Below, piece after piece: positions 117-13,984 of a DNA stretch of 64,000 nt; the first letter of the stretch is position 1, and every line of letters starts with the position of its first letter. Location of the stretch: positions 1 through 64,000 of the forward strand of contig NZ_JAGGJP010000005.1 of assembly GCF_017872975.1 (NCBI RefSeq), written 5' to 3'. The notes under the pieces are model-generated. The model saw only the letters and a list, made by a program, of their open reading frames with translations. It ran no database searches and had not been told where the DNA came from. Position numbers and translations under genes: made by a program. The stretch is from Rubellimicrobium aerolatum. Its GTDB lineage: Bacteria > Pseudomonadota > Alphaproteobacteria > Rhodobacterales > Rhodobacteraceae.

Positions 117-1121
117 TTACCCGAGGATTTCGGAGACGATCACGGCGCGGCCTTCCTGCGCCGAGCGGAGCGCCGCGTCGGCCAAGACCAGGGCCTTGAG
201 GCCGTCCTCGCCGGTGGTGGGGGTCTCGCCCTTCGCGCTCACCGCCGCGATGAAGCCCTCAATCTCGTTGGCATAGGCCTCGGTGTAGCGGGTCATGAAG
301 AAGTTGAGGAGCGGCGGGCGGGTGAAGCCTTGGGCGTTGGCGATCTCGATATTGGCCTCGCGCTGGTTCTCGGCGGCCACCGAGCCCTTGGAGCCCAGCA
401 CCTCGATGCGCTGATCGTAGCCGTAGGTGGCACGGCGCGAGTTGGTGATGATCGCCTGCCGACCCGAAGCCGTCTTGAGGATGACGTTGACCGAATCGTA
501 ATCCCCGAGGTCGCCGATGGCGGGGTCGGTGAGGACGGAGGCCTGGGCCACCACGGTCTCGGGCTCCTCGCCCAGGAGCCAGCGGGCCATGTCGAAGTCG
601 TGGATGGTCATGTCGCGGAAGATGCCGCCCGAGCGCTTGATGTAGTCGGCGGGCGGGGCGCCGGGGTCGCGCGAGGAGATCGTCACCATCTCCACCTCGC
701 CGATGGCGCCGCCGTCGATGGCGGCCTTGACGGCCATGAAGTCGGGGTCGAAGCGGCGGTTGAAGCCGACCATGAGCGTGCCGCCGTTGGCCTTTACGGC
801 CGCGAGGCAGCGCCGCACCCGCTCCACCGAGAGGTCGATGGGCTTCTCGCAGAAGACCGCCTTGCCGATGGCGGTGAACTGCTCGATCAGGTCGGCGTGG
901 GTGTCGGTGGGCGTGCAGATCACCACGGCGTCGATGTCGGGGCTTTGGGCGATCTCGTCGATGCTGCGGACGGCGATGCCGTAGCCCTCGGCGAGGGACT
1001 GGGCGGCGGCCGGGATGGCGTCGGCGACGGCGACGAGCTCGGCGTCGGGGTTGTTGCGGATGGCCCGCGCGTGCACCTTGCCGATGCGGCCCGCGCCTAG
1101 GAGCCCGAATTTGACGGTCAT
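117..1121 (-). CDS. iolG: inositol 2-dehydrogenase (Gfo/Idh/MocA family)
   Basis: 334-residue NAD-dependent oxidoreductase that oxidises myo-inositol (or a close cyclitol) to the 2-keto form in the cytosol. The Rossmann motif GAGRIG is at residues 9-14, EKP at 92-94 supplies the family lysine K93, and D170-x3-H174 matches the catalytic Asp/His pair of IolG. The open frame extends upstream into the ATPase gene, but the start at MTVKFGLLG fits the family length and leaves a 59-base spacer after the ATPase gene. It is the fifth gene of the minus-strand transport/catabolism operon. MocA of the rhizopine pathway belongs to the same family, so the exact cyclitol substrate is inferred, not proven. 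Confidence 0.88.
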   Translation of the reverse strand: MTVKFGLLGAGRIGKVHARAIRNNPDAELVAVADAIPAAAQSLAEGYGIAVRSIDEIAQSPDIDAVVICTPTDTHADLIEQFTAIGKAVFCEKPIDLSVERVRRCLAAVKANGGTLMVGFNRRFDPDFMAVKAAIDGGAIGEVEMVTISSRDPGAPPADYIKRSGGIFRDMTIHDFDMARWLLGEEPETVVAQASVLTDPAIGDLGDYDSVNVILKTASGRQAIITNSRRATYGYDQRIEVLGSKGSVAAENQREANIEIANAQGFTRPPLLNFFMTRYTEAYANEIEGFIAAVSAKGETPTTGEDGLKALVLADAALRSAQEGRAVIVSEILG

Positions 1122-1180: not shown

Positions 1181-1951
1181 TCAGAGCGCGGCGGCGGCGA
1201 GGTTCTGCGACTTGGCGCCGGTGATGTAGGCGACGACGTCCTGGCCGTCGGTCTCCTCCTTGCGGAGGTTGGCGACGATGCGCCCGCGCCGGAAGACGAT
1301 GATCCGGTCCACGAGGTCGAAGACCTGCCGCATGTTGTGGGAGATCAGGATCAGGGATTCGCCGTTGTCCTTGAGGGTGCGGACGATGTTCTCGACCTGC
1401 GCCGTCTCCTGTACGCCGAGCGCGGCCGTCGGCTCGTCCATGATGATGAGCTTGGAGGCGAAGGTCGCGGCGCGGGCGATGGCGACGCATTGGCGCTGGC
1501 CGCCCGACATGTGGCGGATGGTGTTGCCGAGGTTCGGGATCTTGACCGCCGTGCGCTTGAGCGCGGCCTCGGTCGCCTGTCGCATGGCCTTGCGGTCGAG
1601 GATGGAGAAAGGGCCGAGGTTGAACAGGATCTTCTCGCGACCCAGGAACAGGTTGGAGGGCACGTCGAGGTCGTCGGCCAGCGCGAGGTTCTGGAACACC
1701 GCCTCGATCCCGGCCTCGCGGGCGTGGAGGGGGCCGGGGAAGTCCACCTCCCGGCCGTCGAACCAGACCTTGCCGGAGGTGCGGCGCTCGACCCCGGTGA
1801 TCTGGCGGACGAAGGTGGACTTGCCCGCGCCGTTGTCGCCCATGATCGCCACATGCTCGCCCTGGCGAAGCTCGAAGTCGGCGTCCACGAGGGCGTGCAC
1901 GCCGCCGTAGTGCTTGGTCAGGCCCTCGGTTCTGAGGATGATGTCGGACAT
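1181..1951 (-). CDS. sugar/inositol ABC transporter, ATP-binding subunit
   Basis: 256-residue single-domain ATPase of the carbohydrate CUT2 class, unusual in that most CUT2 ATPases are double-domain proteins of about 500 residues; the single-domain form is typical of FrcA-like and inositol systems in alphaproteobacteria. Walker A GDNGAGKS is at 38-45, Q-loop Gln at 87, signature SGGQRQ at 149-154 and Walker B LIIMDE at 168-173, followed by an SHN switch. It lies 10 bases downstream of the permease gene and 59 bases upstream of iolG, so it powers the transporter encoded by the two genes before it. The substrate is inferred from iolG and iolC. Confidence 0.9.
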   Translation of the reverse strand: MSDIILRTEGLTKHYGGVHALVDADFELRQGEHVAIMGDNGAGKSTFVRQITGVERRTSGKVWFDGREVDFPGPLHAREAGIEAVFQNLALADDLDVPSNLFLGREKILFNLGPFSILDRKAMRQATEAALKRTAVKIPNLGNTIRHMSGGQRQCVAIARAATFASKLIIMDEPTAALGVQETAQVENIVRTLKDNGESLILISHNMRQVFDLVDRIIVFRRGRIVANLRKEETDGQDVVAYITGAKSQNLAAAAL

Positions 1952-1961
1952 GATGTTCCCC

Positions 1962-3038
1962 CTAGCCGCGCGTGCCGCGACGGCGCTGCCGCCAGACGTC
2001 GAGCACCACCGCGCCCACGATGATCGCGCCCTTCACCATCTCCTGATAGTAGGCGTCGAGCTTGAGGAAGGTGAAGCCGGAGATGATGACGCCGAAGATC
2101 AGGGCGCCCAGCACGGTGCCGACGATCGAGCCGCGCCCGCCGGAGAGCGACACGCCCCCGATCACCGCCATGGCGATGGCGTCGAGTTCGTACATCACGC
2201 CCATGCCGGCCTGGGCGGTCAGATTCTTTGAGGACAGCACCAAGGCGGCGACGGCGGCCAGCAGCCCGGCGATGGCGTAGACGAGGACCTTGTGCCGCTC
2301 CACGTTGATGCCGGACATCCGCGCGGCCTCCTCGTTGGAGCCGATGGCGTAGCAGCGCTTTCCGTAGAGCGTGAACTTGAGCATCAGGTGGAAGAGGATG
2401 GCCAGCGCCAGGAAGATGACGACCGGCATCAGGCCCTTGCCGATCCCGGCGAAGGGTTCGGTCGGGAAGGAGATCGGCTCGCCCTTGGTCCACCACTTGG
2501 CGACGCCGCGCGCCGTCACCATCATGCCCAGCGTGGCGATGAAGGGCGGGATCTTGGTGTAGGCGATGAGCGACCCGTTGATGAGGCCGGCGAGAAGGCC
2601 GCAGGCGAGGCCGACGAGGACGGGGACCAGCACCGGCAGGTCCACCCAGCCCTGTTCGAGGAACACCGCCTTGGGGTTGGGGTTGCCGTTGACGGTGGCG
2701 ACCTGGGCGAAGCTCATGGCGATCATGGCGGTCGCGCCGACGACCGAGCCCGCGCTGAGGTCGATGCCGCCCGAGATGATGACCTGGGTGATGCCGATGG
2801 CGATGATGCCGACGATCGACACCTGAAGGATGATGATCTGCAACCGCGCTTGGTTGAAGAACGTGTCCACGTTGTCCCGCGTGTTGAGCAGGAAGCTGTC
2901 GCCGAGGAGCGCGCGCCCGAGAAGCTCGAAGGCGGCGACGATCAGCACAAGGGCGATCAGCACGTTGAGTTCCTGCGGCAACTGCCGCTTGGAGTGGTCG
3001 TAGGTCAGGCCACCCACCCCGAAAGTTGTCTGCGCCAC
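1962..3038 (-). CDS. sugar/inositol ABC transporter, permease subunit
   Basis: 358-residue integral membrane protein of the RbsC/branched-chain (BPD_transp_2) family. About eight to ten hydrophobic segments are visible, beginning near residue 26 (LNVLIALVLIVAAF), with the conserved 'GGIDLSAGSVVG' loop near residues 90-101 and 'GGVSLSGGRGSIVGT' near the C-terminal third; these are hallmarks of CUT2 permeases. It forms the membrane channel for the binding protein encoded just upstream and the ATPase just downstream. The length is slightly above the usual 320-340 because of a hydrophilic N-terminal leader. Substrate assignment to inositol or a derivative is by context. Confidence 0.9.
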   Translation of the reverse strand: MAQTTFGVGGLTYDHSKRQLPQELNVLIALVLIVAAFELLGRALLGDSFLLNTRDNVDTFFNQARLQIIILQVSIVGIIAIGITQVIISGGIDLSAGSVVGATAMIAMSFAQVATVNGNPNPKAVFLEQGWVDLPVLVPVLVGLACGLLAGLINGSLIAYTKIPPFIATLGMMVTARGVAKWWTKGEPISFPTEPFAGIGKGLMPVVIFLALAILFHLMLKFTLYGKRCYAIGSNEEAARMSGINVERHKVLVYAIAGLLAAVAALVLSSKNLTAQAGMGVMYELDAIAMAVIGGVSLSGGRGSIVGTVLGALIFGVIISGFTFLKLDAYYQEMVKGAIIVGAVVLDVWRQRRRGTRG

Positions 3039-3132: not shown

Positions 3133-4077
3133 TCAGTTCTTGGCGAGGAACTGGTCGATGTTGGCGGGCGTCACGAGCTGGAAGGGGATGTAGACCTTCT
3201 GGTCCACCGCCTCGCCCCGCGCGAGCTTGAGGGCGGCGTCGAGCGAGCCTTGGCCCTGGCCGGCGGCGTCCTGGAACACGGTCACGTCGAGCTCTCCGGC
3301 CTGCATCGCCGCGAGGGCGTCCTGCGTGGCGTCGATGCCGGCGACGATGACCTGGTCCATGGCGATGCCCGAGGCCTTCATCGCCTGGATCGCGCCGATC
3401 GCCATCTCGTCGTTGTTGGAGATGAGCGCGTCGAAAGGCGCCCCGGTCGAGAGCCAGTTGGTCATCAGGTTCTGCGCCTGATCGCGCGACCAGTTGGCGG
3501 TCTGCTGGTCGATGATGTTCAGGGTCACGCCGCAGTCGCCCGAGGCGATCACGTCGTGGATGTCCTGGGTGCGCTGCACGGCGGCCTGGTTCGACAGCTC
3601 GCCCTGCATGACGTAGACCTGGGCGTCGGTCGTTCCGGCCTCGGCCAGGAGGCGGCAGACCTCGAGCGTTTCCAGGGTGCCGGACTCCACCTCGTTCGAG
3701 GCCACGAAGGCCTGGTTGTCGGGGAGCGTGTCGACGTTGATGGGTTCGCGGTTGACGTAGACCAGCGGCACGCCGGCGGCGGCGGCGGCGTCGGACATCG
3801 CCTGGGTGGCCGAGGTGTCCACCGGATTGACGATGATCGCGTCCACGCCGGAGGCGATGAAGTTGTTGATCTGGTCGAGCTGGCGGGCCACGTCGTTCTG
3901 CGCGTCCTCGACCTGCAGTTCCACGCCGTCGAGCGTGCCGGCATACTCCTCCATGCCGTTCCGCAGCACGGTCAGGAAGTTGTCGTCGAAGAGCGCCATG
4001 GAGACGCCCACCGTCTCGGCCATGGCGCTGGTGGACAGGAGGCCGGCGAAACCGGCCAGGATCAGGGTCTTGTTCAT
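3133..4077 (-). CDS. periplasmic sugar/inositol-binding protein of ABC transporter
   Basis: 314-residue exported solute-binding protein (Peripla_BP_4, RbsB/IbpA type). MNKT-initiated Sec signal peptide with a hydrophobic core and an AMA cleavage site after residue 20. The mature part starts with the first beta strand 'ETVGVSMALFDDNFLT' and shows the family pattern 'IDAIIVNPVDTSA' and 'GIDATQDALAAM'. The start at 4077 was preferred over the longer open frame because it gives a proper signal peptide. It captures the substrate in the periplasm for the permease downstream. MocB, the rhizopine-binding protein, belongs to this family too, so the ligand may be inositol or a methylated or aminated inositol. 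Confidence 0.9.
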   Translation of the reverse strand: MNKTLILAGFAGLLSTSAMAETVGVSMALFDDNFLTVLRNGMEEYAGTLDGVELQVEDAQNDVARQLDQINNFIASGVDAIIVNPVDTSATQAMSDAAAAAGVPLVYVNREPINVDTLPDNQAFVASNEVESGTLETLEVCRLLAEAGTTDAQVYVMQGELSNQAAVQRTQDIHDVIASGDCGVTLNIIDQQTANWSRDQAQNLMTNWLSTGAPFDALISNNDEMAIGAIQAMKASGIAMDQVIVAGIDATQDALAAMQAGELDVTVFQDAAGQGQGSLDAALKLARGEAVDQKVYIPFQLVTPANIDQFLAKN

Positions 4078-4171: not shown

Positions 4172-4990
4172 TCAGGCCGCCTTGGCCGCGAGCCGGGCGG
4201 CGATGAAGTCCATGGACCGGCGCAGGTCGCCGACCGGGTCGGCGCTGGCATGGGTCTCGGGCGCGAAGGCCTCGAAGCTGATGGGGCCGCGGCAGCCCGC
4301 CGATTCGAGCGCGCGGATCTGCTCGATGTTGCCGAGCCGGTCGGCGCCGTCCACGAGGACGCGGTGCTGGTCGCCCATGTCGCCGACGGCGAGCGAGGGA
4401 TCGACCACGCCCGAGACGTGGATGATGCCCGTGTGCTGCGGGAAGATCGGGCCGCCGTGGGCGAGGTGGTGGTGGAAGGTGTCGTGCACCAGCTTGAAGC
4501 GGCCCGTGGCGTTCAGCGCCTCGATGGCCTCCACCGCCTCGGTCTTGTAACGAAGGGCGCAGATCTCGAAGCCCAGGGGCTCGACGAGGCCCACGAGGCC
4601 GTGGTCCTCCAGCAGGGGCTTCAGTTCCCTGAGGGCGACGCGCAGGTTGGCCTGACGCTCGCCGTTGCCCATGCCGCCGTTGTCGTTGCGAGGGATGAGG
4701 CTCACCGCCTCGGCGCCGCAGGCCACCGCGACCTTCATCAGCGCCAGCGCCTCCTCGCGCTTGGCGGGGGACCAGTCGTTGAACCGCTTGACCTCGGCCA
4801 GCGCGAGGATGCGGAGGCCCTTCTCGCGGGCCAGATCGCCCGCCGCCTCAGGGGCCAAGCCGTCGAGGAGCGGCTGGGGCAGGTCGTTGCGGACCTCGAC
4901 GCCCACGCAGCCCAGCGCGGCGGCGGCATCGAGAAGCTCGACGAACGACAGGCGGGCCACGGTCATGTGGTTGATGGCGAACGGCAGCAT
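4172..4990 (-). CDS. xylose-isomerase-like TIM barrel protein, probable inosose isomerase/dehydratase (IolI/MocC type)
   Basis: 272-residue AP-endonuclease-2/xylose isomerase-like TIM barrel. The metal-ligand pattern of this family is visible: Glu137 in LVEPLGFE, Asp170 and His173 in VHDTFHHH, a conserved HVSG strand, and a C-terminal FEAF glutamate. In inositol operons such enzymes isomerise or dehydrate 2-keto-myo-inositol; in the rhizopine pathway the homologue is MocC. The start was set at MLPFAINH, preceded by GGAAGG about nine bases upstream; another ATG eight bases earlier is out of frame. It is the first gene after the regulator and follows a 162-base spacer that holds candidate operators. 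Confidence 0.8.
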   Translation of the reverse strand: MLPFAINHMTVARLSFVELLDAAAALGCVGVEVRNDLPQPLLDGLAPEAAGDLAREKGLRILALAEVKRFNDWSPAKREEALALMKVAVACGAEAVSLIPRNDNGGMGNGERQANLRVALRELKPLLEDHGLVGLVEPLGFEICALRYKTEAVEAIEALNATGRFKLVHDTFHHHLAHGGPIFPQHTGIIHVSGVVDPSLAVGDMGDQHRVLVDGADRLGNIEQIRALESAGCRGPISFEAFAPETHASADPVGDLRRSMDFIAARLAAKAA

Positions 4991-5152: not shown

Positions 5153-6184
5153 TCATACAGATTCGGGAAGGACCAGTTCGGGACGGAGGAAGTGCTGGCC
5201 CGCGACCTCGGACGGCCCCTGCCGCACGGCGTCGGCCATGAGCCGCACGAGGTCGTCGCAGAGCTGCGGCAGCGGCGTGGAGATCACCATCGTCGCGAAG
5301 CCGTCGATCAGCGCCGAGCGGGATTCGGGCGTGACCTCGTTGACGATGAGGCAGACCTCGCCGGGCTTGCGAACCTCGCGCAGGGCGGCGATGGCGCCCT
5401 CCATGCCGCCGCCCGCGACGTAGATGCCGCGCAGTTCGGGGTGGCGGTCGAGGAGGTCGAGCGTCGCCTCGTAGGTGAGCTGGCGGGTTTCAAGGTTCAC
5501 CAGCGTGTCAAGGATCTGGAACTGCGGCGCGTATTCGCGGAACCAGCTTCGGAAGCCCGCCTCGCGCAATTCGTGGCCGTGCCAGCGGTAGCCGCCGACG
5601 AAGACCGCGACCTTGCCGGGCCGGTGCGCGGCCAAGCCGATCACCGAGGCGGCAATGCGCCCGACCTTGACGTTGTTGAGCCCAAGGTAGTTCTGCCGGA
5701 TGCCTTGGGCGAAGTCGTTGAGGAGCGCGAAGGTGGGGCTGCCCTCGGCCTTGAGGGTGACGACGGCGTCGGTCACATCCGGGTGCGTCACGGCGCTGGC
5801 GGCCACGGCGTCGGCCCGGCCCCGCATCGCGAGGAGGAGGGAGGCGAAGTCCGACGGAGCCTGCGAGGCCGCGAACTCCAGCATCAGCTTGACGCGGACC
5901 CCGGTGGCGCGGCGGGCCGCCGCTTCCAGCTCGGCGGCGAAAGCCTGGTAGAAGGCCTGACGCTCCTTGTGGAGGACGACGCCCATCCGAAGCGTCGGCA
6001 GGTCGGTCTGGAGCCGCTGGGCGATCAGGGGCGCGGCGTGGTAGCCGATCCGGCGCGCGGCCTCGTAAACGCGTTGGGCGGTCTCCTCGCGCACCTGCTC
6101 GCGGCCGTTCAGGACGCGGTCCACCGTCGCCTGGCTGACGCCCGCCGCCTTGGCGACATCCTGGATGGTCGGTCGGCGGGCCAT
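5153..6184 (-). CDS. LacI-family transcriptional regulator
   Basis: 343-residue LacI/GalR-type regulator. The N-terminal helix-turn-helix is at about residues 5-27 (TIQDVAKAAGVSQATVDRVL), followed by the hinge region and a periplasmic-binding-protein-like effector domain (residues about 60-340) of the sugar-sensing type. The start at MARRPTIQDV was chosen because AGGAG sits six to ten bases upstream; an in-frame ATG seven codons earlier lacks this. It lies between the minus-strand cyclitol operon and the divergent plus-strand oxygenase unit, so it is well placed to control both. Effector identity (inositol or derivative) is inferred from context. Confidence 0.9.
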   Translation of the reverse strand: MARRPTIQDVAKAAGVSQATVDRVLNGREQVREETAQRVYEAARRIGYHAAPLIAQRLQTDLPTLRMGVVLHKERQAFYQAFAAELEAAARRATGVRVKLMLEFAASQAPSDFASLLLAMRGRADAVAASAVTHPDVTDAVVTLKAEGSPTFALLNDFAQGIRQNYLGLNNVKVGRIAASVIGLAAHRPGKVAVFVGGYRWHGHELREAGFRSWFREYAPQFQILDTLVNLETRQLTYEATLDLLDRHPELRGIYVAGGGMEGAIAALREVRKPGEVCLIVNEVTPESRSALIDGFATMVISTPLPQLCDDLVRLMADAVRQGPSEVAGQHFLRPELVLPESV

Positions 6185-6326
6185 TCCGGCTCCTGATGTA
6201 ATCACCTCAATTCAGGACTTCACTTGTGAGGCGTTCTGAGGAAATGTCCAGCGCGGATGTTGGGGAACCACGTCGCGCGGCCTTATGGGACGTGCCAGAT
6301 CGACCCCGCATTCGGAGGAGGAACAC
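6185..6326. promoter_or_regulatory. divergent regulatory region between the LacI gene and the oxygenase unit
   Basis: 142 bases between two divergent starts; promoters for both the regulator and the MocD-like unit must lie here or further out. The stretch 6195-6250 is relatively AT-rich. Imperfect CCTCA/TGAGG symmetry is present near 6203-6240 but no strong palindrome was found. A clear ribosome-binding site GGAGGAG sits at 6314-6320 before the oxygenase start. Confidence 0.4.
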
Positions 6327-7424
6327 ATGCGCAAGAGGAACTACAGCCTGCTCGGCCCCGACGGCCAGCGCGCCGTCGAGAGCGGATTGGCGGCCGCCGA
6401 GTGGTACCACACCGAGGTGCCGCGCAAGGTCATGAAGGAGCTGATGCAGCGCAAGGATGGCCCCGCCATCCGCGACACGATCCTTTGGCTGGGCGCGATG
6501 GTCGTGCTGGCGGGGGTCGCGGTCGCGCTGTGGGTGGGCGGGCATCCCTGGCTGTCGGTGCCGTTCTGGCTGGCCTATGGCGTGCTCTATGGCTCGGCCT
6601 CGGATTCGCGCTGGCATGAGTCGTCCCATGGGACCGCGTTCAAGACGCCGTGGATGAACAACGTCGTCTACGGGATCGCCTGCTTCATGATCGTGCGGAA
6701 CCCGCACACCTGGCGCTGGAGCCACGCGCGGCACCACACCGACACCTACATCGTCGGCCGCGACCCGGAGATCGCCATCATGCGTCCGCCGGAGATGGCG
6801 AAGCTGTTCCTGAACTTCTTCGGCATCCTCGACGCCTGGAACGGCTGGGGCCGGATGCTCTACAACGCCGCCGGCAAGATCCACCCGGAGGAGCAGACCT
6901 TCGTTCCGCAGAGCGAATGGCCCAAGGTCATCCGCGTGGCGCGCATCTGGACGCTGATCTACGCCGCGACGATCGCCGTGGCGGTCGCGACGGGCTCGGT
7001 CGTGCCGCTGCTGCTGGTCGGGGGGCCGCGCCTCTACGGGGCATGGCACCACATCATGACGGGGCTGCTCCAGCACGGGGGTCTGGCGGACAACGTCATC
7101 GACCACCGGCTGAACTCGCGGACCGTCTACATGAACCCGATCTCGCGGTTCATCTACTGGAACATGAACTACCACGTGGAGCATCACATGTTTCCGATGG
7201 TGCCGTATCACGCGCTGCCCCGGCTGCACGAGATCATCAAGCACGACCTGCCCAAGCCGAACGACTCCATCGCGCAGGCCTTTGGCGAGATGTGGCCGGC
7301 GATCCGGCGGCAGCTTCGTTACGAGGATTACTTCCTCAAGCGCGAGTTGCCGGCCACCGCCAAGCCCTACCGCGAGGACTTCCACCTCTCGGCGCTCGGC
7401 AGCGGGACCGTTGCGGCCGAGTGA
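6327..7424 (+). CDS. membrane fatty-acid-desaturase-family diiron oxygenase (MocD-like)
   Basis: 365-residue integral membrane enzyme. Three histidine boxes of the desaturase/hydroxylase superfamily are present: H97-x3-H101, H133-x2-HH136-137 and H283-x2-HH286-287, with additional H241/H242 between membrane segments near residues 52-70, 77-90 and 205-232. Such proteins bind two irons and use O2 plus electrons from a ferredoxin. It is followed by a MocE-family Rieske ferredoxin and sits beside inositol genes, as MocD does in rhizopine catabolism, where MocDEF are thought to remove an O-methyl group. A role as cyclitol O-demethylase or hydroxylase is therefore inferred; a lipid desaturase role is the alternative. 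Start chosen at the ATG after GGAGGAG. Confidence 0.8.
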   Translation: MRKRNYSLLGPDGQRAVESGLAAAEWYHTEVPRKVMKELMQRKDGPAIRDTILWLGAMVVLAGVAVALWVGGHPWLSVPFWLAYGVLYGSASDSRWHESSHGTAFKTPWMNNVVYGIACFMIVRNPHTWRWSHARHHTDTYIVGRDPEIAIMRPPEMAKLFLNFFGILDAWNGWGRMLYNAAGKIHPEEQTFVPQSEWPKVIRVARIWTLIYAATIAVAVATGSVVPLLLVGGPRLYGAWHHIMTGLLQHGGLADNVIDHRLNSRTVYMNPISRFIYWNMNYHVEHHMFPMVPYHALPRLHEIIKHDLPKPNDSIAQAFGEMWPAIRRQLRYEDYFLKRELPATAKPYREDFHLSALGSGTVAAE

Positions 7425-7496
7425 CCCGGACCCATCGGCCGGAGCCCTTCGGGGGTCCGGCCCAACAGACTTCATGACCTCAGGGAAGGACCGAAG

Positions 7497-7811
7497 ATGC
7501 CCCAATGGATCGACGCGTGCGCGGTCGATGAGATCGACGAGGAGGACGTCATGCGCTGGGACCACGGCGGCAGGACCTACGCGATCTACCACAGCCCCGA
7601 CGGCGAGTTCTTCTGCACCGACGGGATGTGCACCCACGAGAACGTCCACCTCGCGGGGGGGCTGGTGATGGACTACGTGATCGAGTGCCCCAAGCATAAC
7701 GGCCAGTTCGACTACCGCACCGGGGCTGCCAAGCGCGCGCCGGTCTGCGTGAACCTGCGCACCTACCCGGCCAAGGCCGAGGGCGGGCGCGTGCTCGTGC
7801 AGGTGGGCTGA
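7497..7811 (+). CDS. MocE-family Rieske [2Fe-2S] ferredoxin
   Basis: 104-residue soluble Rieske ferredoxin. Cluster ligands are plain: C45-x-H47 in CTHENVHL and C64-x2-H67 in CPKHNGQFD, 16 residues apart. It would pass single electrons to the diiron oxygenase encoded 72 bases upstream. A ferredoxin reductase (the MocF equivalent) is not found in this window, so electrons must come from a reductase encoded elsewhere. The stop codon TGA abuts the GTG start of the next gene, indicating one transcript with coupled translation. Confidence 0.9.
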   Translation: MPQWIDACAVDEIDEEDVMRWDHGGRTYAIYHSPDGEFFCTDGMCTHENVHLAGGLVMDYVIECPKHNGQFDYRTGAAKRAPVCVNLRTYPAKAEGGRVLVQVG

Positions 7812-8618
7812 GTGCGCGCCTCCTCGCGGAAATGGACGGTCGCCGACCTGCGGGCGGCGAAGGGAAGCCACCAGTTCGCCATGCTGCGCGTCGAGACCAT
7901 CGACGAAGCGGCGGCGGCGGAGGCGGCGGGCGTGGAGCTGCTGTCGGTGCCGCCGGAGATGCTGGCGGACCCGCGCTTCCGGCAGGTCGCGCCGAATGCC
8001 TTCGCCTGTCCGGGCATGAACTTCTACGAGGTCGGTGGGGCCGACGACTTCCTGCGCTGGGCCTTCCCGCTCTGGGCGCAGGGGGCGGATGCGGTCTATT
8101 GCTCGGGCTCGCTCGCCACCGTGCGGGCGCTGACAGAGAACGGCATCCCCGTCTGCGGGCACGTGGGGCTGGTGCCGTCCAAGTGCACCTGGACGGGTGG
8201 CTTCAAGGCAGTGGGCAAGACGCTGGACAGCGCGAAGCGGCTTTGGGAGTCGTGCCTCGCCTACGAGGAGGCGGGGGCCTTTGCCGTCGAGATCGAGGTC
8301 GTGCCGCAGCAGATCACCGAGGCCATCGCCGAGCGGACGGGGCTGTTCCTGATCTCCATGGGCGGCGGGGCCGGGGGGCACGCGCAATACCTGTTCACCG
8401 ACGACGTGCTGGGGCAGACCGCCGGGCACATCCCGCGCCATGCCAAGGTCTACGCGGACTTCCGCGCCGAGCACGCGCGGTTGCAGGAGAAGCGGATCGC
8501 GGCGATGCGGGCCTTCGCGGACGACGTGCATGGCGGGGCCTACCCGTCGCGCGAGCATGTCGTGAACGCGGCCGACGAGGTGACCCAGCAGTTCCGGGAG
8601 TGGCTGGCGCATAATTAG
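7812..8618 (+). CDS. PanB-fold protein (ketopantoate hydroxymethyltransferase paralogue) lacking canonical metal ligands
   Basis: 268 residues, homologous to 3-methyl-2-oxobutanoate hydroxymethyltransferase. Conserved PanB landmarks remain: VCGHVGLVPS with H117, GGFKAVGK, the catalytic-type Glu162 in IEVVP, and AGHIPRHAK. The three Mg ligands of PanB appear lost: the VGDS site reads SVPP (45-48), the ADLPF site reads ACPGMNF, and the KIEGG site reads YCSGS (96-100). This argues against pantothenate synthesis and for a new reaction. It is the third gene of the oxygenase unit; since PanB chemistry uses formaldehyde carried by folate, a link to formaldehyde released by demethylation is an attractive but untested idea. 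Starts with GTG directly after the upstream stop. Confidence 0.72.
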   Translation: MRASSRKWTVADLRAAKGSHQFAMLRVETIDEAAAAEAAGVELLSVPPEMLADPRFRQVAPNAFACPGMNFYEVGGADDFLRWAFPLWAQGADAVYCSGSLATVRALTENGIPVCGHVGLVPSKCTWTGGFKAVGKTLDSAKRLWESCLAYEEAGAFAVEIEVVPQQITEAIAERTGLFLISMGGGAGGHAQYLFTDDVLGQTAGHIPRHAKVYADFRAEHARLQEKRIAAMRAFADDVHGGAYPSREHVVNAADEVTQQFREWLAHN

Positions 8619-9262
8619 GCGATCCGCAGGATCACGGGGGGCGCGTCGGTGAGCGTGCCCTCCAGACGGTCGCCGGGGCCGACCGGGCCGACGCCGGCGG
8701 GGGTGCCCGTCAGGATGAGGTCGCCGGGGCCGGGCGTGTAGAGCGTGCGGAGATGCGCGAGGAGCGCGTCGATGCCGTGGATCATGTCCGAGATCGGCGC
8801 GCGCTGGCGGAGGTCGCCGTTCACGCTGAGGGTGAGTTCGGCGTCGGGAGCCGGGGCGCCCTGGACCAGCGGGGCGACGACTGCCGAGCCTTCCCAGTCC
8901 TTCGACACGTCCCACGGCTTGCGGGCCTCCTTGGCGCGGGCCTGGAGGTCGCGGCGGGTCATGTCAAGGCCGACGCCGTGGGCCCAGACCTCGCCGCCCT
9001 GCCCCAGCGCCAGGACCAGCTCGACCTCGTGGTGGAGGTCGTCCGTGCCCGGCGGATAGGGGAGGATCGCATCGGAGGGGAGGAGGCCGAAGGGGGACTT
9101 GGTGAACCAGAACGGCTCGGAGCGGTCCACGGCGTTGCCCATCTCCGCCGCGTGGGCGGCGTAGTTGCGGCCAACGCAGAAGATGCGGGCGACGGGATAG
9201 GTCAGATCGGTGCCGGCGACGGGAAGCTCGGGCAGCGGGCGGGCGGCGAAGGCCTGGGGCAT
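8615..9262 (-). CDS. fumarylacetoacetate hydrolase (FAH) family protein
   Basis: 215-residue member of the FAH superfamily (fumarylpyruvate hydrolase/acylpyruvase type). Visible are the GRNYAAHAAEMG motif at 31-42, the metal ligands E79 and E81 in HHEVELVL, the GLDMTRRDLQ segment with D100, and the C-terminal LTGTPAGVGP turn. Members hydrolyse C-C bonds of acylpyruvates or decarboxylate oxaloacetate with a divalent metal. It converges with the PanB-like gene, the two stop codons overlapping by a few bases, so it is transcribed separately. Whether it belongs to the same pathway cannot be told from the sequence. Confidence 0.88.
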   Translation of the reverse strand: MPQAFAARPLPELPVAGTDLTYPVARIFCVGRNYAAHAAEMGNAVDRSEPFWFTKSPFGLLPSDAILPYPPGTDDLHHEVELVLALGQGGEVWAHGVGLDMTRRDLQARAKEARKPWDVSKDWEGSAVVAPLVQGAPAPDAELTLSVNGDLRQRAPISDMIHGIDALLAHLRTLYTPGPGDLILTGTPAGVGPVGPGDRLEGTLTDAPPVILRIA

Positions 9263-9524
9263 CGGGGACTCCTGTTCATGTCATGGGCGCGGCGAATCGC
9301 CGGACCCTTTGTGGGGTTCATGCGAGTCAGGCTAACCCCAAGGGATGAACAAGGTCCGACAGCAACGCGCGTAAGCGTGACGGAATCTTAATGGATCGTC
9401 AGGACGGGGTGCGGGAGGGGTGTGATTCGCGGGACTCAGGGCGTCGGATCGGGGAGGGTTCGTGGGGCAGGCTTCAGCGCGCCATGCCTCGTCCGATCAA
9501 CCCGCGCGAGTGGCCGGGGAGCGT

Positions 9525-9548
9525 GGTGGGGTGCAACCCCACCCTACG
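9525..9548. repeat. REP-like palindrome
   Basis: GGTGGGGT-GCA-ACCCCACC forms a perfect 8-bp hairpin followed by CTACG. The same hairpin-plus-CTACG design occurs at 19289-19318 and 22750-22772. Such REP-like units are dispersed in many proteobacterial genomes. It lies in the spacer between the FAH gene and the pqi operon (9263-9561), where no gene was found. Confidence 0.6.
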
Positions 9549-9561
9549 ATGCGATGACGCT

Positions 9562-10128
9562 TCAGCGCAGGCCGTCGGTCGCGATCTGGCGGGCGAGTTG
9601 CAGGGTCGCCTGGCCGCGTGCGCTCGCGATGGCGGCGGGGCCGGGGTCGGGCGGGAGGGGGACGGCCACGCGGAACTCGCGGGCGCGGTCGCGGCCGGTG
9701 CCGTCCTGGGAGGCGACGAAGTACTGGCCCCGGATGACGAAGGCGCCGGCGGTGGCGTCGGCGACGATCTCGGCCACCCGGACATCGACCTGGGCCTGGG
9801 CGCGCTCCTCGAAGGGCCAGGGCTCGGGGGCGCTGCGGGCGCCGGTGAGCGCCCCGAGGGTGCGGGAGAGGTCGAGCGTCAGGGCGCGGGCCGGGTCGTC
9901 GGCGAGGACGGCGCGGGGGACGGCGGTCAGCGCCCCGCCCTGCCCCTGCACGTAGATGCGATCGTCCTGCGCGTAGGCGGGGAGCGACACGTCCAGCACC
10001 TCGACGGAGGCGAAGGCCACGCCCACCCTCTCGGAGGCCGGGGCGGGCGGGACCGCGAGGCGCAGGGGCTCGCGCGAGCAGGCGGCGAGGAGGAGGACGA
10101 GGACGAGGGAGGCCGGGCGATGGATCAT
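9562..10128 (-). CDS. pqiC: PqiC-like outer-membrane lipoprotein (ABC-type transport auxiliary lipoprotein)
   Basis: 188 residues with a lipoprotein signal peptide: MIHRPASLVLVLLLAAC, lipobox cysteine at residue 17. The rest matches the PqiC/YmbA (DUF330) pattern, with RIYVQ, the central DLSRTLG segment and the C-terminal QLARQIA helix. PqiC anchors the PqiB needle at the outer membrane in lipid trafficking. It is the last gene of the pqi operon; its ATG overlaps the stop of pqiB by one base (TGATG), so translation is coupled. Confidence 0.82.
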   Translation of the reverse strand: MIHRPASLVLVLLLAACSREPLRLAVPPAPASERVGVAFASVEVLDVSLPAYAQDDRIYVQGQGGALTAVPRAVLADDPARALTLDLSRTLGALTGARSAPEPWPFEERAQAQVDVRVAEIVADATAGAFVIRGQYFVASQDGTGRDRAREFRVAVPLPPDPGPAAIASARGQATLQLARQIATDGLR

Positions 10129-12509
10129 CAGTCGCGTCCGAAGATGAGGGAGTTGGGGTTGCGCTCGATGGTGCGGGCGAGCGCGGCCACGGCGTCGGCG
10201 GCGGCGGCGACCTCGCGGATGGCGGCCTGCGCCTCGCGCACGACGCCGGAGGAGGAGTCGAAGCCCGCCACGGTGGCGGTCGCCTGGTCGAGCAGCGCGC
10301 TGGCGCGTTCGACCAGCGCGGGCAGGCTGGTGGCGGCGTCGCGGGCGGCGGCGAGCGTGGCGTTGGCGTTGGCGATCACGCCGCCCTCGCGCGCCTCGCG
10401 CAGCAGCGCCTCGACCTCGGCCAGCGCGGCGGACAGGTCGGCGGGGAGCTGCTGCGCGCCTTCGGAACCCACCAGCGCGTCGGCGCTGGCGGAGAGCGCG
10501 GTGAGCTCGGCCACCAGCTCCCCGACGGGGAGGGCGTTGGCCTTGGCCACCAAAGCGTCGATGCGCCGGGTGAGCTGCGGCAGGTCGTCGGCGGCGGACT
10601 GGACGGACTGCGCGGCCTGATCGGCGGCGGCGATGGCCGAGGCGAGGCGGGTTCCGAGCTCGCCGTCGTCGAGGTCGGAGAGGATCGCGCGGGCCTCGGA
10701 GAGGGTGGCGGTCGCCTCGGTGGAGAGCTGGCCGAGCTGGGCCGGAAGCTCCTGCACGCCGGGCTGCGCCAGGAGGGCGCGGGCGTCGGCGGAAAGGCCC
10801 GAGACCTCGGCCAGCAGGTCCTCCACGGGGAGGGCCTGGGCCTTGGCGGCGACGGCGTTGAGGTTGTCGATGAGGGCGGGGACGCCCGCCGTCGCCTCGC
10901 CGATGCGGGCGACGGCGGTGTTGGCGGTATCCACGGCGGCGAGGATGCGGCCGATGGCGTTCTGCTCGCGCAAGCTGTCCAGGCTTTCGCGGATGCCGTT
11001 GATGGTGGCGTCGATGTCGGCGAGCGTCTGCGAGAGCTGGCCGGGGAGCGCCTGCACCTCGGGCGAGGCGGTGACGTTGCGGAGGTCGCCCAGGAGGCCG
11101 TTGATCTGGCCGGGCACCGCCTGCGTCTCGGGCGAGCCGACCAGCGTCGCGGCGTTGTCGAGGAAGGCGGTGGCGGAGTCGAGCAGGTCCTCGATGGGGA
11201 GGTTCGAGACGCGGGTCAGCACGTCCTGCGCCTGCCCCGCCACGTCGGCGATCTGGGCCTCGGCGGTGGGGAGGGCGGGGAACGGGAGCGCGGCGAGGTC
11301 GATCTCGCCGGGGGGGAGGTCGGGCAGTTCGAGGAGCTGGACCTTGAGGCCGCCGAGGAGGCCGGCGGAGGCGAGCTGCGCGCGAAGGCCGCGCGCCACG
11401 CGGGCCTGGAGGGCGTCGAGCACCTCCTCGCGGCCGGCGTCGCCTTCGAGGCCGAGGCGGGCGGGCTGGAGGGCGAGGACGGCCTGGAGATGCACCTCCT
11501 CGTCGCCGAAGCGTTCGGGGTCGAGGAGGCCGTTCACGTCCGTCACCTCGCCGATGCGGAGGCCGTCGAGCTCGACCGGGGCGCCGACGGCGAGGCCGGC
11601 GATGTCGCCCGAGAAGATGGCGAGGAGGGACAGGACCGGCGAGTTCGGGTCGGTGTAGATCGAGTCGCGGGCGTAGGATTCGTAGAGGAAGGCCTCGAAC
11701 ACGTCGCCGTCGCGGGCGGGCTGGGCGCCCGAGACGAAGGTGTCGAAGGCGAGGCCGCCGACGATGAGCGAGGACAGCGAGTCGAAGTCCACCTCGGCCC
11801 CGCCCGAACCGACGGAGAGGCTGAAGCCCGAGGCATCCCAGAACACGGTCGCCTCGGTCACGAGGCGGTCGTAGGGGGCGAAGATGACGGCGGGGGCGGT
11901 GACGGAGATGCCGTCCGTGCCCACCACGGGGTCGCCCACCTGCCCGACGGTGACGCCCTGGTAGATGATCGGCACCGCCGAGGTCAGCGTGCCGTCGGTG
12001 GAGCGGAGGGTGAATTCGAGGCCCTCCTGCCCGACGCCGAGGAGGGGCGTGGTGGCGAGGCCCTGGAAGCGTTCGGCGGGCTCGCTGCGGGCGTTGTCCC
12101 AGGTGCCCTCGATGAAGACGCCGGAGAGCACGGTCTCCAGGCCGGTGATGCGCTGGGTGGTGATCTCGGGGCGGACGACCCAGAAGCGGGCGTCGGCGTC
12201 CACGAAGGGCGCCACCTCGCGGTCGAGGCGGACGGAGACGATGACGCGGGCGAGGTCGGGGGTGAAGCGGACCCGTTCGACGAGGCCGACGGCGACGTTG
12301 CGGTAGCGCAGCTCGGTCTGGCGGGCCACCACGCCGGCGGCGTCCTCGAACTCGATCTCGATGAGGGGGCCCTGCTCGCGGAAGCTGCTCCAGGCGACGC
12401 CGAGGGCGATGGCGAGCGCGGCGAGCGGGACGAGCCAGATGACGGACACGCGCTGCCAGAGGCTTCGCCGGGCGGAGGCGACGGGGATCGGGGGGATGGG
12501 GTCGGTCAT
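10128..12509 (-). CDS. pqiB: PqiB-like MCE-domain protein with long C-terminal extension
   Basis: 793 residues, against roughly 550 for E. coli PqiB. One N-terminal membrane anchor (about residues 21-44) is followed by tandem MCE domains: the 'GPLIEIEFEDAAGVV' and later 'VPIIYQGVTVGQV' and 'GAPVELDGLRIGEV' strands are the recurring MCE cores. From about residue 430 on, the protein is alpha-helical and repetitive, with units of the type 'ALPVEDLLAEVSGLSADARALL' that recur with spacings of roughly 100 residues; such helices build the needle of PqiB-type tunnels across the periplasm. Start chosen at MTDPIPPIPV, where ATGA overlaps the stop of the preceding pqiA gene. Confidence 0.85.
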   Translation of the reverse strand: MTDPIPPIPVASARRSLWQRVSVIWLVPLAALAIALGVAWSSFREQGPLIEIEFEDAAGVVARQTELRYRNVAVGLVERVRFTPDLARVIVSVRLDREVAPFVDADARFWVVRPEITTQRITGLETVLSGVFIEGTWDNARSEPAERFQGLATTPLLGVGQEGLEFTLRSTDGTLTSAVPIIYQGVTVGQVGDPVVGTDGISVTAPAVIFAPYDRLVTEATVFWDASGFSLSVGSGGAEVDFDSLSSLIVGGLAFDTFVSGAQPARDGDVFEAFLYESYARDSIYTDPNSPVLSLLAIFSGDIAGLAVGAPVELDGLRIGEVTDVNGLLDPERFGDEEVHLQAVLALQPARLGLEGDAGREEVLDALQARVARGLRAQLASAGLLGGLKVQLLELPDLPPGEIDLAALPFPALPTAEAQIADVAGQAQDVLTRVSNLPIEDLLDSATAFLDNAATLVGSPETQAVPGQINGLLGDLRNVTASPEVQALPGQLSQTLADIDATINGIRESLDSLREQNAIGRILAAVDTANTAVARIGEATAGVPALIDNLNAVAAKAQALPVEDLLAEVSGLSADARALLAQPGVQELPAQLGQLSTEATATLSEARAILSDLDDGELGTRLASAIAAADQAAQSVQSAADDLPQLTRRIDALVAKANALPVGELVAELTALSASADALVGSEGAQQLPADLSAALAEVEALLREAREGGVIANANATLAAARDAATSLPALVERASALLDQATATVAGFDSSSGVVREAQAAIREVAAAADAVAALARTIERNPNSLIFGRD

Positions 12510-13231
12510 GCGGGGCGTTCGGCCTCCGGCTCCGCCTGGGCGCGGGCGTCGGCCTCCGTTTCCGCTTCGGCGCGGGCCTTGGCCTCCGTCTCCGCTTCGG
12601 CGCGGGCCTCGATGCCGTCCCAGATCATGCGGGGGTCGAAGGCCTGGGCCGAGAGCATCGTGAAGATCACCGAAAGCGCGAAGGCGAGGGAGGCGGGGCC
12701 GGGGCTGATCGAGGCCACGACGTTGAGTTGCACGAGGGAGGCGAGGATCGCAACCACGAACACGTCGATCATCGACCAGCGGCCGATGTAGTCCACGATC
12801 TCGTAGAGGCGCATCCGCAGGCCCGGCGCCATCCGCGAGCCGTGGCGGACGGACATGGCGAGGAAGGCGATGCAGACGAACTTGGCGAAGGGGATGCCGA
12901 CGCTGGCGACGAGGATGACCAGCGCGATGCCGGCCGAGCCGTGGAGCAGGAGCTCCACCGCGCCGCCGACGATGGTGGAGTCCTGGGTGGAGAAGAGCGT
13001 CCGGGTCTCCAGCATCGGGTAGATGTTGGCGGGGAGGTAGGCCATGAGGCCCGCCGCCCACCAGGCCCAGACGCGGCTGAGGCTGCGGGGGTCGCGCGAC
13101 ACGAGCCGGCCGCCGCAGCGGCCGCAGCGGTCCTGGCCCATGGGCCAGACGCGCGAGCAGCGGCGGCAGGCCACGAGGCCGGCGTCGCGGGCGGTGACGT
13201 GGAGGAGGCCGGCTTCGGGGACCGGGGTCAT
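12506..13231 (-). CDS. pqiA: PqiA-like inner-membrane protein, second half
   Basis: 241 residues corresponding to one of the two four-helix modules of PqiA. An N-terminal zinc-ribbon-like stretch has CRRC and CGRCGG pairs (near residues 23-40), followed by four membrane segments and the PqiA signature 'YLPANIYPML' and 'ILASLVQL'. The last 35 residues are an acidic/alanine tail of repeated AEAETEA(K/D)AR units, encoded by a 30-bp tandem repeat at 12540-12611. It overlaps both neighbours by ATGA junctions, so all four pqi genes are translationally coupled. Confidence 0.85.
   Translation of the reverse strand: MTPVPEAGLLHVTARDAGLVACRRCSRVWPMGQDRCGRCGGRLVSRDPRSLSRVWAWWAAGLMAYLPANIYPMLETRTLFSTQDSTIVGGAVELLLHGSAGIALVILVASVGIPFAKFVCIAFLAMSVRHGSRMAPGLRMRLYEIVDYIGRWSMIDVFVVAILASLVQLNVVASISPGPASLAFALSVIFTMLSAQAFDPRMIWDGIEARAEAETEAKARAEAETEADARAQAEPEAERPA
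12540..12611. repeat. 30-bp tandem repeat (about 2.4 copies) inside pqiA
   Basis: Units at 12540-12569 and 12570-12599 differ at only a few positions, and a partial third unit follows. They encode the decapeptide pattern AR-AEAETEA-(K/D). Copy-number changes would stay in frame. Confidence 0.75.
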
Positions 13232-13866
13232 CGGGCGGGGCTGATCGACTGCCAGACCGACCAGCGGCAGACGATCTGGTCCTGGGCGACGGTGACGACC
13301 ACCAGCCCCGCGAACATCCAGAAGGCGGGGCCGAGCGAGACCTGGGCGAGGTCGGCGATCTTCACGAGCGAGACGGCGCAGCCGATGGCGAAGATCTCGG
13401 CCATGGACCAGGGGCGCAGGGATTCGGCGAGGCGGAAGGCGCGGGCGGCCTGGGCGGGCGGCGGGCGGTCGAAGACGATGGGGACCAGCGTGTAGAGGAT
13501 CAGCATGGCGCGCATCAGCGGCAGGACCAGGATCGCCGCCGTCACCGCGAGCGAGACGAGGAGGAGGGGGCCGCCGACGAAGCTGGTCGCCACCTCCCAG
13601 AGGGTCGCCTGCTGCCAGAGGCCCCGCGCCTCGATGCGGAGGAACGGGAACCAGAGCGAGCCCACCACCAGCACCACCGCCGTCAGCGCCAGCGCGATCA
13701 CGACCATGCCGGCGTGGCGGCGGGGCGAGATGAGGACGGTGTGGCAGCGGGCGCAGGTGGCGCGGCTGCCATCGGGCACCTCGGCGGCGCGATAGATGGC
13801 GTCGCATTCCGGGCAGGCGATCAGGTCCGCCGCCGCCGTGCCCGCGATGATGCCGCCGTCCGCCAT
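13228..13866 (-). CDS. pqiA: PqiA-like inner-membrane protein, first half
   Basis: 212 residues forming the other PqiA module. CPEC and CARC cysteine pairs near residues 18-42 make a zinc ribbon, then four membrane segments begin near residue 54 (MVVIALALTAVVLVVGSLWF). The 'PWSMAEIFAIG' loop is the PqiA hallmark. In E. coli both modules are fused in one protein of about 420 residues; here they are separate genes joined by an ATGA overlap. It is the first gene of the pqi operon and delivers lipids or substrate to the MCE protein. Confidence 0.85.
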   Translation of the reverse strand: MADGGIIAGTAAADLIACPECDAIYRAAEVPDGSRATCARCHTVLISPRRHAGMVVIALALTAVVLVVGSLWFPFLRIEARGLWQQATLWEVATSFVGGPLLLVSLAVTAAILVLPLMRAMLILYTLVPIVFDRPPPAQAARAFRLAESLRPWSMAEIFAIGCAVSLVKIADLAQVSLGPAFWMFAGLVVVTVAQDQIVCRWSVWQSISPAR

Positions 13867-13940
13867 GGTCCCCGATCCGGTCGCCCGGCCCCTATCTAGG
13901 CCCGCCGGGCGGGAAGGCCAAGCGCGCCAGCCCCCCGACG

Positions 13941-13984
13941 CCGGGTCAGGCAGGGGCCGGGTCAGGCAGGGGCCGGGTCAGGGG
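13941..13984. repeat. 16-bp tandem repeat at the 3' end of the antiporter gene
   Basis: Two identical 16-base units (13941-13956, 13957-13972) and a 12-base partial unit (13973-13984). The antiporter's stop codon (13978-13980) lies in the partial unit. Because 16 is not a multiple of three, gain or loss of a unit would change the reading frame. Confidence 0.8.

Follow-up and report, generated by a model that had tools for sequence, protein, structure and literature searches.

The PanBL operon and its surroundings

The DNA considered here is a 64,000-nucleotide stretch (the window) on contig C5 of the 3.76 Mb Rubellimicrobium aerolatum genome (G000), and its central feature is an operon of three genes. 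The first encodes a MocD-type membrane di-iron oxygenase with three histidine boxes (6327..7424, + strand; PF00487, 125 bits), the second a MocE Rieske-type [2Fe-2S] ferredoxin (7497..7811, +) that passes the curated cut-off of TIGR02377 (174.3 versus 136.15 bits), and the third a PanB-like protein with the ketopantoate hydroxymethyltransferase (KPHMT) fold, here called PanBL (7812..8618, +; PF02548, 129.2 bits), for which a role as a one-carbon (hydroxymethyl or formaldehyde) acceptor enzyme is proposed below. The GTG start codon of PanBL immediately follows the mocE stop codon. Divergent from the operon is a LacI-family regulator (5153..6184, −; PF00356, 57.5 bits) that is 53% identical to the Rhizobium etli regulator divergent from mocD.

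Beyond the regulator, all on the − strand, lie a xylose-isomerase-like TIM barrel (4172..4990; PF01261, 80.4 bits; 54% identity to its R. etli counterpart), a MocB-like periplasmic binding protein (3133..4077; PF13407), a CUT2 ABC transporter permease (1962..3038; PF02653, 155.9 bits), a CUT2 sugar/cyclitol ABC transporter ATPase (1181..1951; PF00005) and an IolG-type inositol 2-dehydrogenase of the Gfo/Idh/MocA family (117..1115), which is above the equivalog cut-off of TIGR04380 (429.8 versus 355 bits). The best NCBIfam matches of the ATPase are sugar CUT2 ATPases, with no model above its cut-off among the 25 matches listed. Genes were called from the window sequence and then typed against Pfam and NCBIfam models, and both steps agree with a preliminary description of this DNA, which had placed the three-histidine-box oxygenase, the MocE ferredoxin and the PanB-fold gene in one operon divergent from lacI, with the TIM barrel, the CUT2 transporter and the Gfo/Idh dehydrogenase on the far side.

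The mocD-mocE-PanBL block does not represent a chance arrangement, since 32 of 41 related loci from GTDB genomes (L016-L056) preserve its order and strand, and 31 of these 32 have LacI and TIM-barrel matches on the opposite side (the remaining locus, L026, begins at mocD). The nearest named loci are from Rubellimicrobium, with 78-82% identity at PanBL. A promoter and terminator scan and an inverted-repeat search around the gap between lacI and mocD found nothing. A convergent fumarylacetoacetate-hydrolase-family gene (8615-9262, −) overlaps the end of PanBL by four bases; it probably lies outside the proposed demethylation module, because such a gene adjoins PanBL in only two of the 41 related loci (L016, L017).

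MocD carries the histidine boxes HESSH, HARHH and HVEHH, and the genome yielded no other PF00487 match. The protein is 71% identical to the MocD of a rhizopine-type locus, and in a 51-row tree it falls into a 22-row set with rhizopine-locus MocD (SH-aLRT 96) that includes the rhizopine-type loci of R. indicum, Sinorhizobium meliloti and Phyllobacterium. The Pfam name of the family, fatty acid desaturase, would suit a lipid desaturase operon that stands beside inositol genes by accident, but such a reading is very improbable given the likeness to rhizopine-locus MocD, the linkage of LacI and TIM barrel to the block in other genomes, and a score of 39.2 bits against a cut-off of 500 for a Delta(10) desaturase model, all of which already contradict it. 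Lipid-desaturase identity was rejected on the tree grouping, and the placement among lipid desaturases that the preliminary description had named in advance as fatal to its proposal did not occur, in a tree whose outgroup consists of two putative fatty-acid desaturases on very long branches, one of them inside the tree, and whose deep root is therefore unsure.

The preliminary description had also stated that no mocF-like reductase is present in the window. This holds for a full-length gene; a partial match of 36.8 bits lies at 37932-38303. The best MocF-like gene of the genome is on another contig (C7:13082-14284, 41% identity), and no mocF match was found in the examined stretches of the 41 related loci.

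The PanBL family

The window PanBL falls below the models for panB (107.5 versus 207.55 bits for TIGR00222 and 116.9 versus 272 bits for PRK00311). A PanBL profile built from 15 members splits its matches into two groups, with PanBL sequences aligned at full length at about 200-450 bits and true PanB sequences at about 130 bits or less, most of the latter starting only at residue 40-60; a few matches fall between the two groups, at 140-161 bits. Among genomes sampled across the class, 16 of 289 have a PanBL match of at least 200 bits; at E 1e-45, PanBL is found in 46 of 244 genomes sampled across the order and 19 of 398 sampled phylum-wide, all 19 within the class of the window. In a 101-protein tree PanBL forms a single clade of 74 rows (SH-aLRT 100, stem length 1.67).

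An AlphaFold model of the window PanBL (pLDDT 84.6, low at 122-131 and 203-206) has KPHMT structures as its top Foldseek matches (3vav, also 1m3u, TM about 0.75), and thus shares the KPHMT fold. The active site is preserved only in part. H136 and E181 (Escherichia coli PanB numbering) are invariant in 75 of 75 PanBL and 20 of 20 true PanB sequences, whereas D84, K112 and E114 are present in 20 of 20 true PanB and 0 of 75 PanBL sequences (counts that exclude L114_734 and the outer group L099-L101 and L118-L120). The columns of the GDS motif, 95-100% conserved in true PanB, are not kept in PanBL. Within their first 90 residues, 13 of 20 true PanB sequences contain the letters GDS; within the first 110, 0 of 75 PanBL sequences do. 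The lost residues, D84, K112, E114 and the GDS motif, are the Mg2+ and keto-acid ligands of KPHMT. PanBL has invariants of its own in E160 and H210, with R228 conserved at 99%, and also differs from PanB in its genomic partners.

In public records, relatives of PanBL are annotated as 3-methyl-2-oxobutanoate hydroxymethyltransferase, which would make PanBL a second PanB of pantothenate synthesis. This is scarcely credible. The pantothenate reading was rejected on the model scores, the separate clade and the loss of active-site residues; an ordinary PanB gene stands separately in the genome (C5:188527, L161) and falls into the true-PanB group of the tree; and in the Pfam recount described below, Pantoate_ligase accounts for 8 of the 120 genes around true PanB, and the 25 families listed beside PanBL do not include it.

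Two sets of more distant relatives lie at the edge of the family. The outer PanB-like group mentioned above (about 94-101 bits) falls outside the PanBL clade, and at five of its six loci FA-hydroxylase or PhyH genes are close by, in some cases together with genes for TRAP transporters. Firmicutes-type relatives (L057-L061; 27-30% identity) were left out of the tree, and no oxygenase was recognised among the neighbours listed for four of the five.

The Rubellimicrobium aerolatum genome contains three further PanBL-type genes (48, 42 and 51% identity). In the module on contig C1 (L007) the gene is accompanied by an oxygenase and MocE, by a binding protein, a TIM barrel and two Gfo/Idh genes, and by LacI in divergent orientation; the module on C30, whose FA_hydroxylase-family oxygenase (PF04116) is 62% identical to the C1 enzyme, also has MocE, a binding protein and LacI; and the PanBL gene on C36 is accompanied by LacI, a CUT2 transporter and sugar enzymes, with no oxygenase seen beside it at what is the end of the contig. 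The C1 copy may be mobile, because many transposase-like open reading frames come after its module (L007, about 8400-14300; read by eye). The preliminary description had missed both these three modules and the PanB-fold gene as a conserved novelty.

Oxygenase and one-carbon genes beside PanBL

The neighbours of PanBL were compared at 40 test loci (L121-L160), hand-picked from phylum- and order-wide profile matches, spread over genera and mostly chosen before their neighbours had been seen; L134 is the same locus as L053, seen earlier, and some others repeat genomes behind L016-L056. Twenty true-PanB controls were hand-picked from lower-scoring profile matches together with the PanB of the window genome itself. 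An oxygenase gene lies within 6.5 kb of PanBL at 36 of the 40 loci (strand ignored; 35 on the same strand) and an oxygenase or MocE gene at all 40, as against an oxygenase at one control of 20 (none on the same strand) and MocE at none (Fisher P 8e-11), in a comparison that favours the test set, as the oxygenase seeds were taken from PanBL loci. These oxygenases are of the FA_desaturase, FA_hydroxylase, PhyH and Ring_hydroxyl_A (Rieske) types, the seeds having been typed by Pfam except for RO_114, PhyH_119 and FAh_115.

A Pfam recount, using a random 20 of the 40 test loci and 120 neighbours per set, reduces this bias but does not remove it. Beside PanBL it detects FA_desaturase 11 times, Rieske 10 times, FA_hydroxylase three times and Ring_hydroxyl_A twice; beside true PanB, none of these four families is among the 25 listed of 148. 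Gene calling for the recount was crude and some mocE genes were missed, which works against the favoured reading. With each locus labelled by its nearest oxygenase, the partner changes at least 13 times inside the PanBL clade alone (15 times when the outer-group rows are included), and PanBL therefore appears to follow a shared product and not one substrate. Some PanBL loci also contain GH4 glycosidases (L110) or TRAP transporters.

Streamlined alphaproteobacterial genomes of 1.4-1.6 Mb (G259, G030 and G161; L105, L106 and L108-L110, with 30-32% GC there) carry PanBL as well, accompanied by MocD-like, FA-hydroxylase or PhyH genes. G161 has four copies, one of them beside two GH4-type glycosidase genes.

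PanBL is also found within rhizopine-type loci, where it is paired with a purU gene. All six such loci examined (R. indicum L067, S. meliloti L200 and L203, Phyllobacterium L201, R. lentis L202 and R. leguminosarum L204) preserve the order mocD-mocE-mocF-PanBL-purU, and all six also carry MocR, binding-protein, Gfo/Idh and iolE-like genes. L067 was picked via its mocD match, L200 because its record also had a PanBL match, and L201-L204 from binding-protein matches (25 of 254 records listed). MocR scores 739-765 bits against the NF052281 cut-off of 650 in L067, L200, L201, L202 and L203, the five loci with an intact MocR frame that the scan covered, and the L067 PurU passes TIGR00655. Frames are broken, by sequencing error or decay, in PanBL, PurU and MocR of L204 (RCAM2802 plasmid p_4) and in mocD of L203 (RCAM1115). 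Three LacI-type rhizobial loci (L062, L063 and L066) have PanBL and no purU match in the examined stretch.

Among 71 PanBL genomes, folD is present in 70 and purU in 18. In four of the 18 genomes with both genes (G675, G395, G838 and G117), purU lies within 3.5 kb of PanBL, against an expectation of 0.044 (P 1.6e-7), although the four cases are not fully independent, as G117 and G838 share one iol-type arrangement. The linked loci vary in composition. L213 has the order MocD-MocE-PanBL-purU; L104 and L149 combine MocE, a TIM barrel, PanBL, iolG and purU, and L104 has PanBL, two Gfo/Idh genes, purU, iolC and iolD in series, the last three above their cut-offs. At L053/L134, a MocE-PanBL pair lies between purU (TIGR00655, above cut-off) and a LysR gene, beyond which are formate dehydrogenase genes (TIGR01591 and TIGR00129, both above cut-off).

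Proposed function and relation to rhizopine catabolism

The preliminary description had assigned the operon to a moc-like system that demethylates a methylated inositol or inosamine and feeds it into the iol pathway, and this proposal stands in part. The window contains a MocDE pair of rhizopine type, as indicated by the MocD identity, the shared tree set and the TIGR02377 score; its binding protein and the one encoded divergently from MocR in L067 share 66% identity across 314 columns; its PanBL is 56% identical to that of the rhizopine locus (mocR, mocBA, mocC, mocDEF); and Gfo/Idh and TIM-barrel genes are present in both. IolG and two iolD genes above cut-off (on contigs C42 and C11) fit with cyclitol breakdown. 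However, there is no MocR beside the binding protein and mocD, no full-length mocF is linked, purU is on another contig (C3), and IolG and the Gfo/Idh protein of the rhizopine locus share only 30% identity. Because LacI replaces MocR and IolG is so dissimilar, the window does not count as a rhizopine locus in the strict sense. A methylated inositol or inosamine is nonetheless the likely substrate to which the binding protein, MocD, IolG and iolD point, with ordinary methylated sugars as the alternative, and the idea of cyclitol demethylation is plausible and partly published for rhizobia.

The published rhizobial counterparts are LacI (FixV homologue)-Msi119-mocDEF clusters in R. etli, R. leguminosarum and S. 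meliloti, for which a link to an inositol derivative has been made (PMC3538637, in the parts consulted), so that the LacI-TIM barrel-mocDEF arrangement is not itself new. The window TIM barrel occupies a position like that of the Msi119 homologues, and L062, L063 and L066 resemble these clusters in having a divergent LacI beside the mocD operon (with the TIM barrel in L062 and L063). These three loci, which also carry PanBL, differ from the window in having mocF and in lacking a CUT2 transporter or IolG match in the examined stretch. In the portions of the sources that were accessible, descriptions of rhizopine and LacI loci name mocDEF only (PMC10107442, PMC3538637), the main text of the latter does not contain the words panB or ketopantoate, the rhizopine literature does not say what becomes of the methyl group after its removal, and a literature search found no description of PanBL or of a purU gene in a moc operon. 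Three points are new to our reading: PanBL remains constant across operons in which the oxygenase varies, its active site is altered, and in rhizopine loci it is paired with PurU.

From gene content and sequence comparison, the evidence leans modestly toward an operon for the oxidative O-demethylation of a methylated cyclitol or comparable methyl ether, with a dedicated one-carbon enzyme as part of it; the methyl group would probably be that of a plant sugar-alcohol, for example a methylated inositol. Both MocD (71%) and the binding protein (66%) have close counterparts in a rhizopine-type locus, the substrate of which is an O-methyl ether. In the proposed pathway, the CUT2 transporter would import the substrate and LacI would de-repress both transcription units. 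Electrons from NAD(P)H would pass via an unlinked MocF-like reductase and MocE to MocD, which, judging by its kinship, would hydroxylate the O-methyl carbon to give a hemiacetal. Whatever the oxygenase fold, a hydroxylated methyl-ether or N-methyl carbon is an unstable hydroxymethyl group, that is, formaldehyde. Family chemistry, the residue pattern and the gene neighbours suggest that PanBL would take up this hydroxymethyl or formaldehyde unit to form 5,10-methylene-tetrahydrofolate, in effect running a KPHMT half-reaction in reverse. FolD, PurU and formate dehydrogenase, where present, would then convert the one-carbon unit to formate and CO2, while IolG would oxidise the demethylated cyclitol, which would enter iol-type catabolism.

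KPHMT normally takes its one-carbon unit from methylene-tetrahydrofolate (PMC4814558, in the part consulted). Since PanBL has lost the metal and keto-acid side of the active site and kept the histidine and glutamate, and since its neighbours are likely demethylases, PurU and formate dehydrogenase, its role seems best explained as placing a one-carbon unit onto tetrahydrofolate. A more general proposal can be made only tentatively, and we would give it somewhat less than an even chance: PanBL may be the tetrahydrofolate counterpart of Fae, loading formaldehyde or a hydroxymethyl hemiacetal, having evolved from KPHMT by loss of the metal site, and may act as a one-carbon sink that does not depend on the partner and serves oxidative demethylases from three or more unrelated families in Alphaproteobacteria, including those of the rhizopine pathway.

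It is also conceivable, although unlikely, that the operon does carry out O-demethylation but leaves the formaldehyde to general routes (a glutathione-dependent dehydrogenase or spontaneous condensation with tetrahydrofolate), with PanBL in some other role, for instance a retro-aldol or hydrolytic reaction on the carbon skeleton of the sugar or cyclitol. KPHMT has been described as a class II aldolase (PMC4814558, in the part consulted), and sugar enzymes (Gfo/Idh, TIM barrel, GH4) are common in PanBL loci. However, the residues expected for a metal-dependent aldol step (D84, K112, E114 and GDS) are those absent from every PanBL sequence, no common carbon skeleton is evident among partners that span cyclitol operons, GH4 and TRAP loci while oxygenases are near-constant, and the links to PurU and formate dehydrogenase would be left unexplained.

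More doubtful still is a reaction in which the oxygenase hydroxylates a ring carbon or other non-methyl position and no demethylation occurs. Guanitoxin-type arginine hydroxylases have the same fold as the MocD-type oxygenase, the window MocD matches GntB weakly (34.1 bits, cut-off 380), and at L208, on a plasmid of Rhodobacteraceae bacterium M382, a desaturase-ferredoxin pair adjoins a 5-guanidino-2-oxopentanoate decarboxylase gene, which suggests a MocDE-type pair used on a guanidino compound. The window MocD, however, belongs to the rhizopine-locus set and lies apart from L208, and the associations with PurU and formate dehydrogenase point to a one-carbon product.

Beyond the seed bias and the partial dependence of the purU cases noted above, several observations weigh against the assignment of PanBL to one-carbon loading. 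Formaldehyde condenses with tetrahydrofolate spontaneously (PMC8879981, in the part consulted), so that the step can proceed unaided, and PanBL would therefore serve as an accelerator or channel, in the way that Fae does for tetrahydromethanopterin. Of the 71 PanBL genomes, 53 lack purU, which also favours another role for PanBL, and no folD gene was seen beside PanBL among the positions listed for these genomes (compared by eye). Exceptions occur among the test loci: L124 and L149 have an FA-hydroxylase gene on the same strand farther upstream, beyond 6.5 kb, at L143 mocD is on the opposite strand at a distance of about 8 kb, the only oxygenase of L130 is on the other strand, and none was found at L134. 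Elsewhere, no oxygenase match was found in the examined stretches of L051, L055 (MocE only), L098, L111, L112 and L117, or at L103 and L113, both at contig ends. Finally, L065 (Jiella), L205 (Acidiphilium) and L207 (Aminobacter) have mocDEF without a PanBL match in the examined stretches, and PanBL is thus not required for every MocD reaction.

Two known systems offer parallels to the proposed role. The purU-mabO-folD operon of nicotine catabolism transfers a methyl group to tetrahydrofolate and disposes of it via FolD and PurU; its methylene-tetrahydrofolate is formed from an N-methyl group by an amine oxidase, whereas here an oxygenase and a PanB-fold protein are proposed to act on an O-methyl group (PMC3891541, in the part consulted). 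Fae likewise accelerates the condensation of formaldehyde with a pterin cofactor, but it serves tetrahydromethanopterin, and the likeness concerns the proposed role (PMC8879981, in the part consulted).

The breakdown of rhizopine is well known from plant-microbe interactions and is currently a target for engineering, and the conserved gene order suggests that PanBL and PurU are members of its operon that have been overlooked. Pinitol, ononitol and other methylated inositols are common in plants, and Rubellimicrobium aerolatum is predicted to grow on compounds of this kind. If PanBL does load formaldehyde onto tetrahydrofolate, this would explain how sugar-demethylating cells avoid free formaldehyde, would call for the re-annotation of a family now labelled as pantothenate biosynthesis, and would provide a one-carbon-capture enzyme for synthetic methylotrophy.

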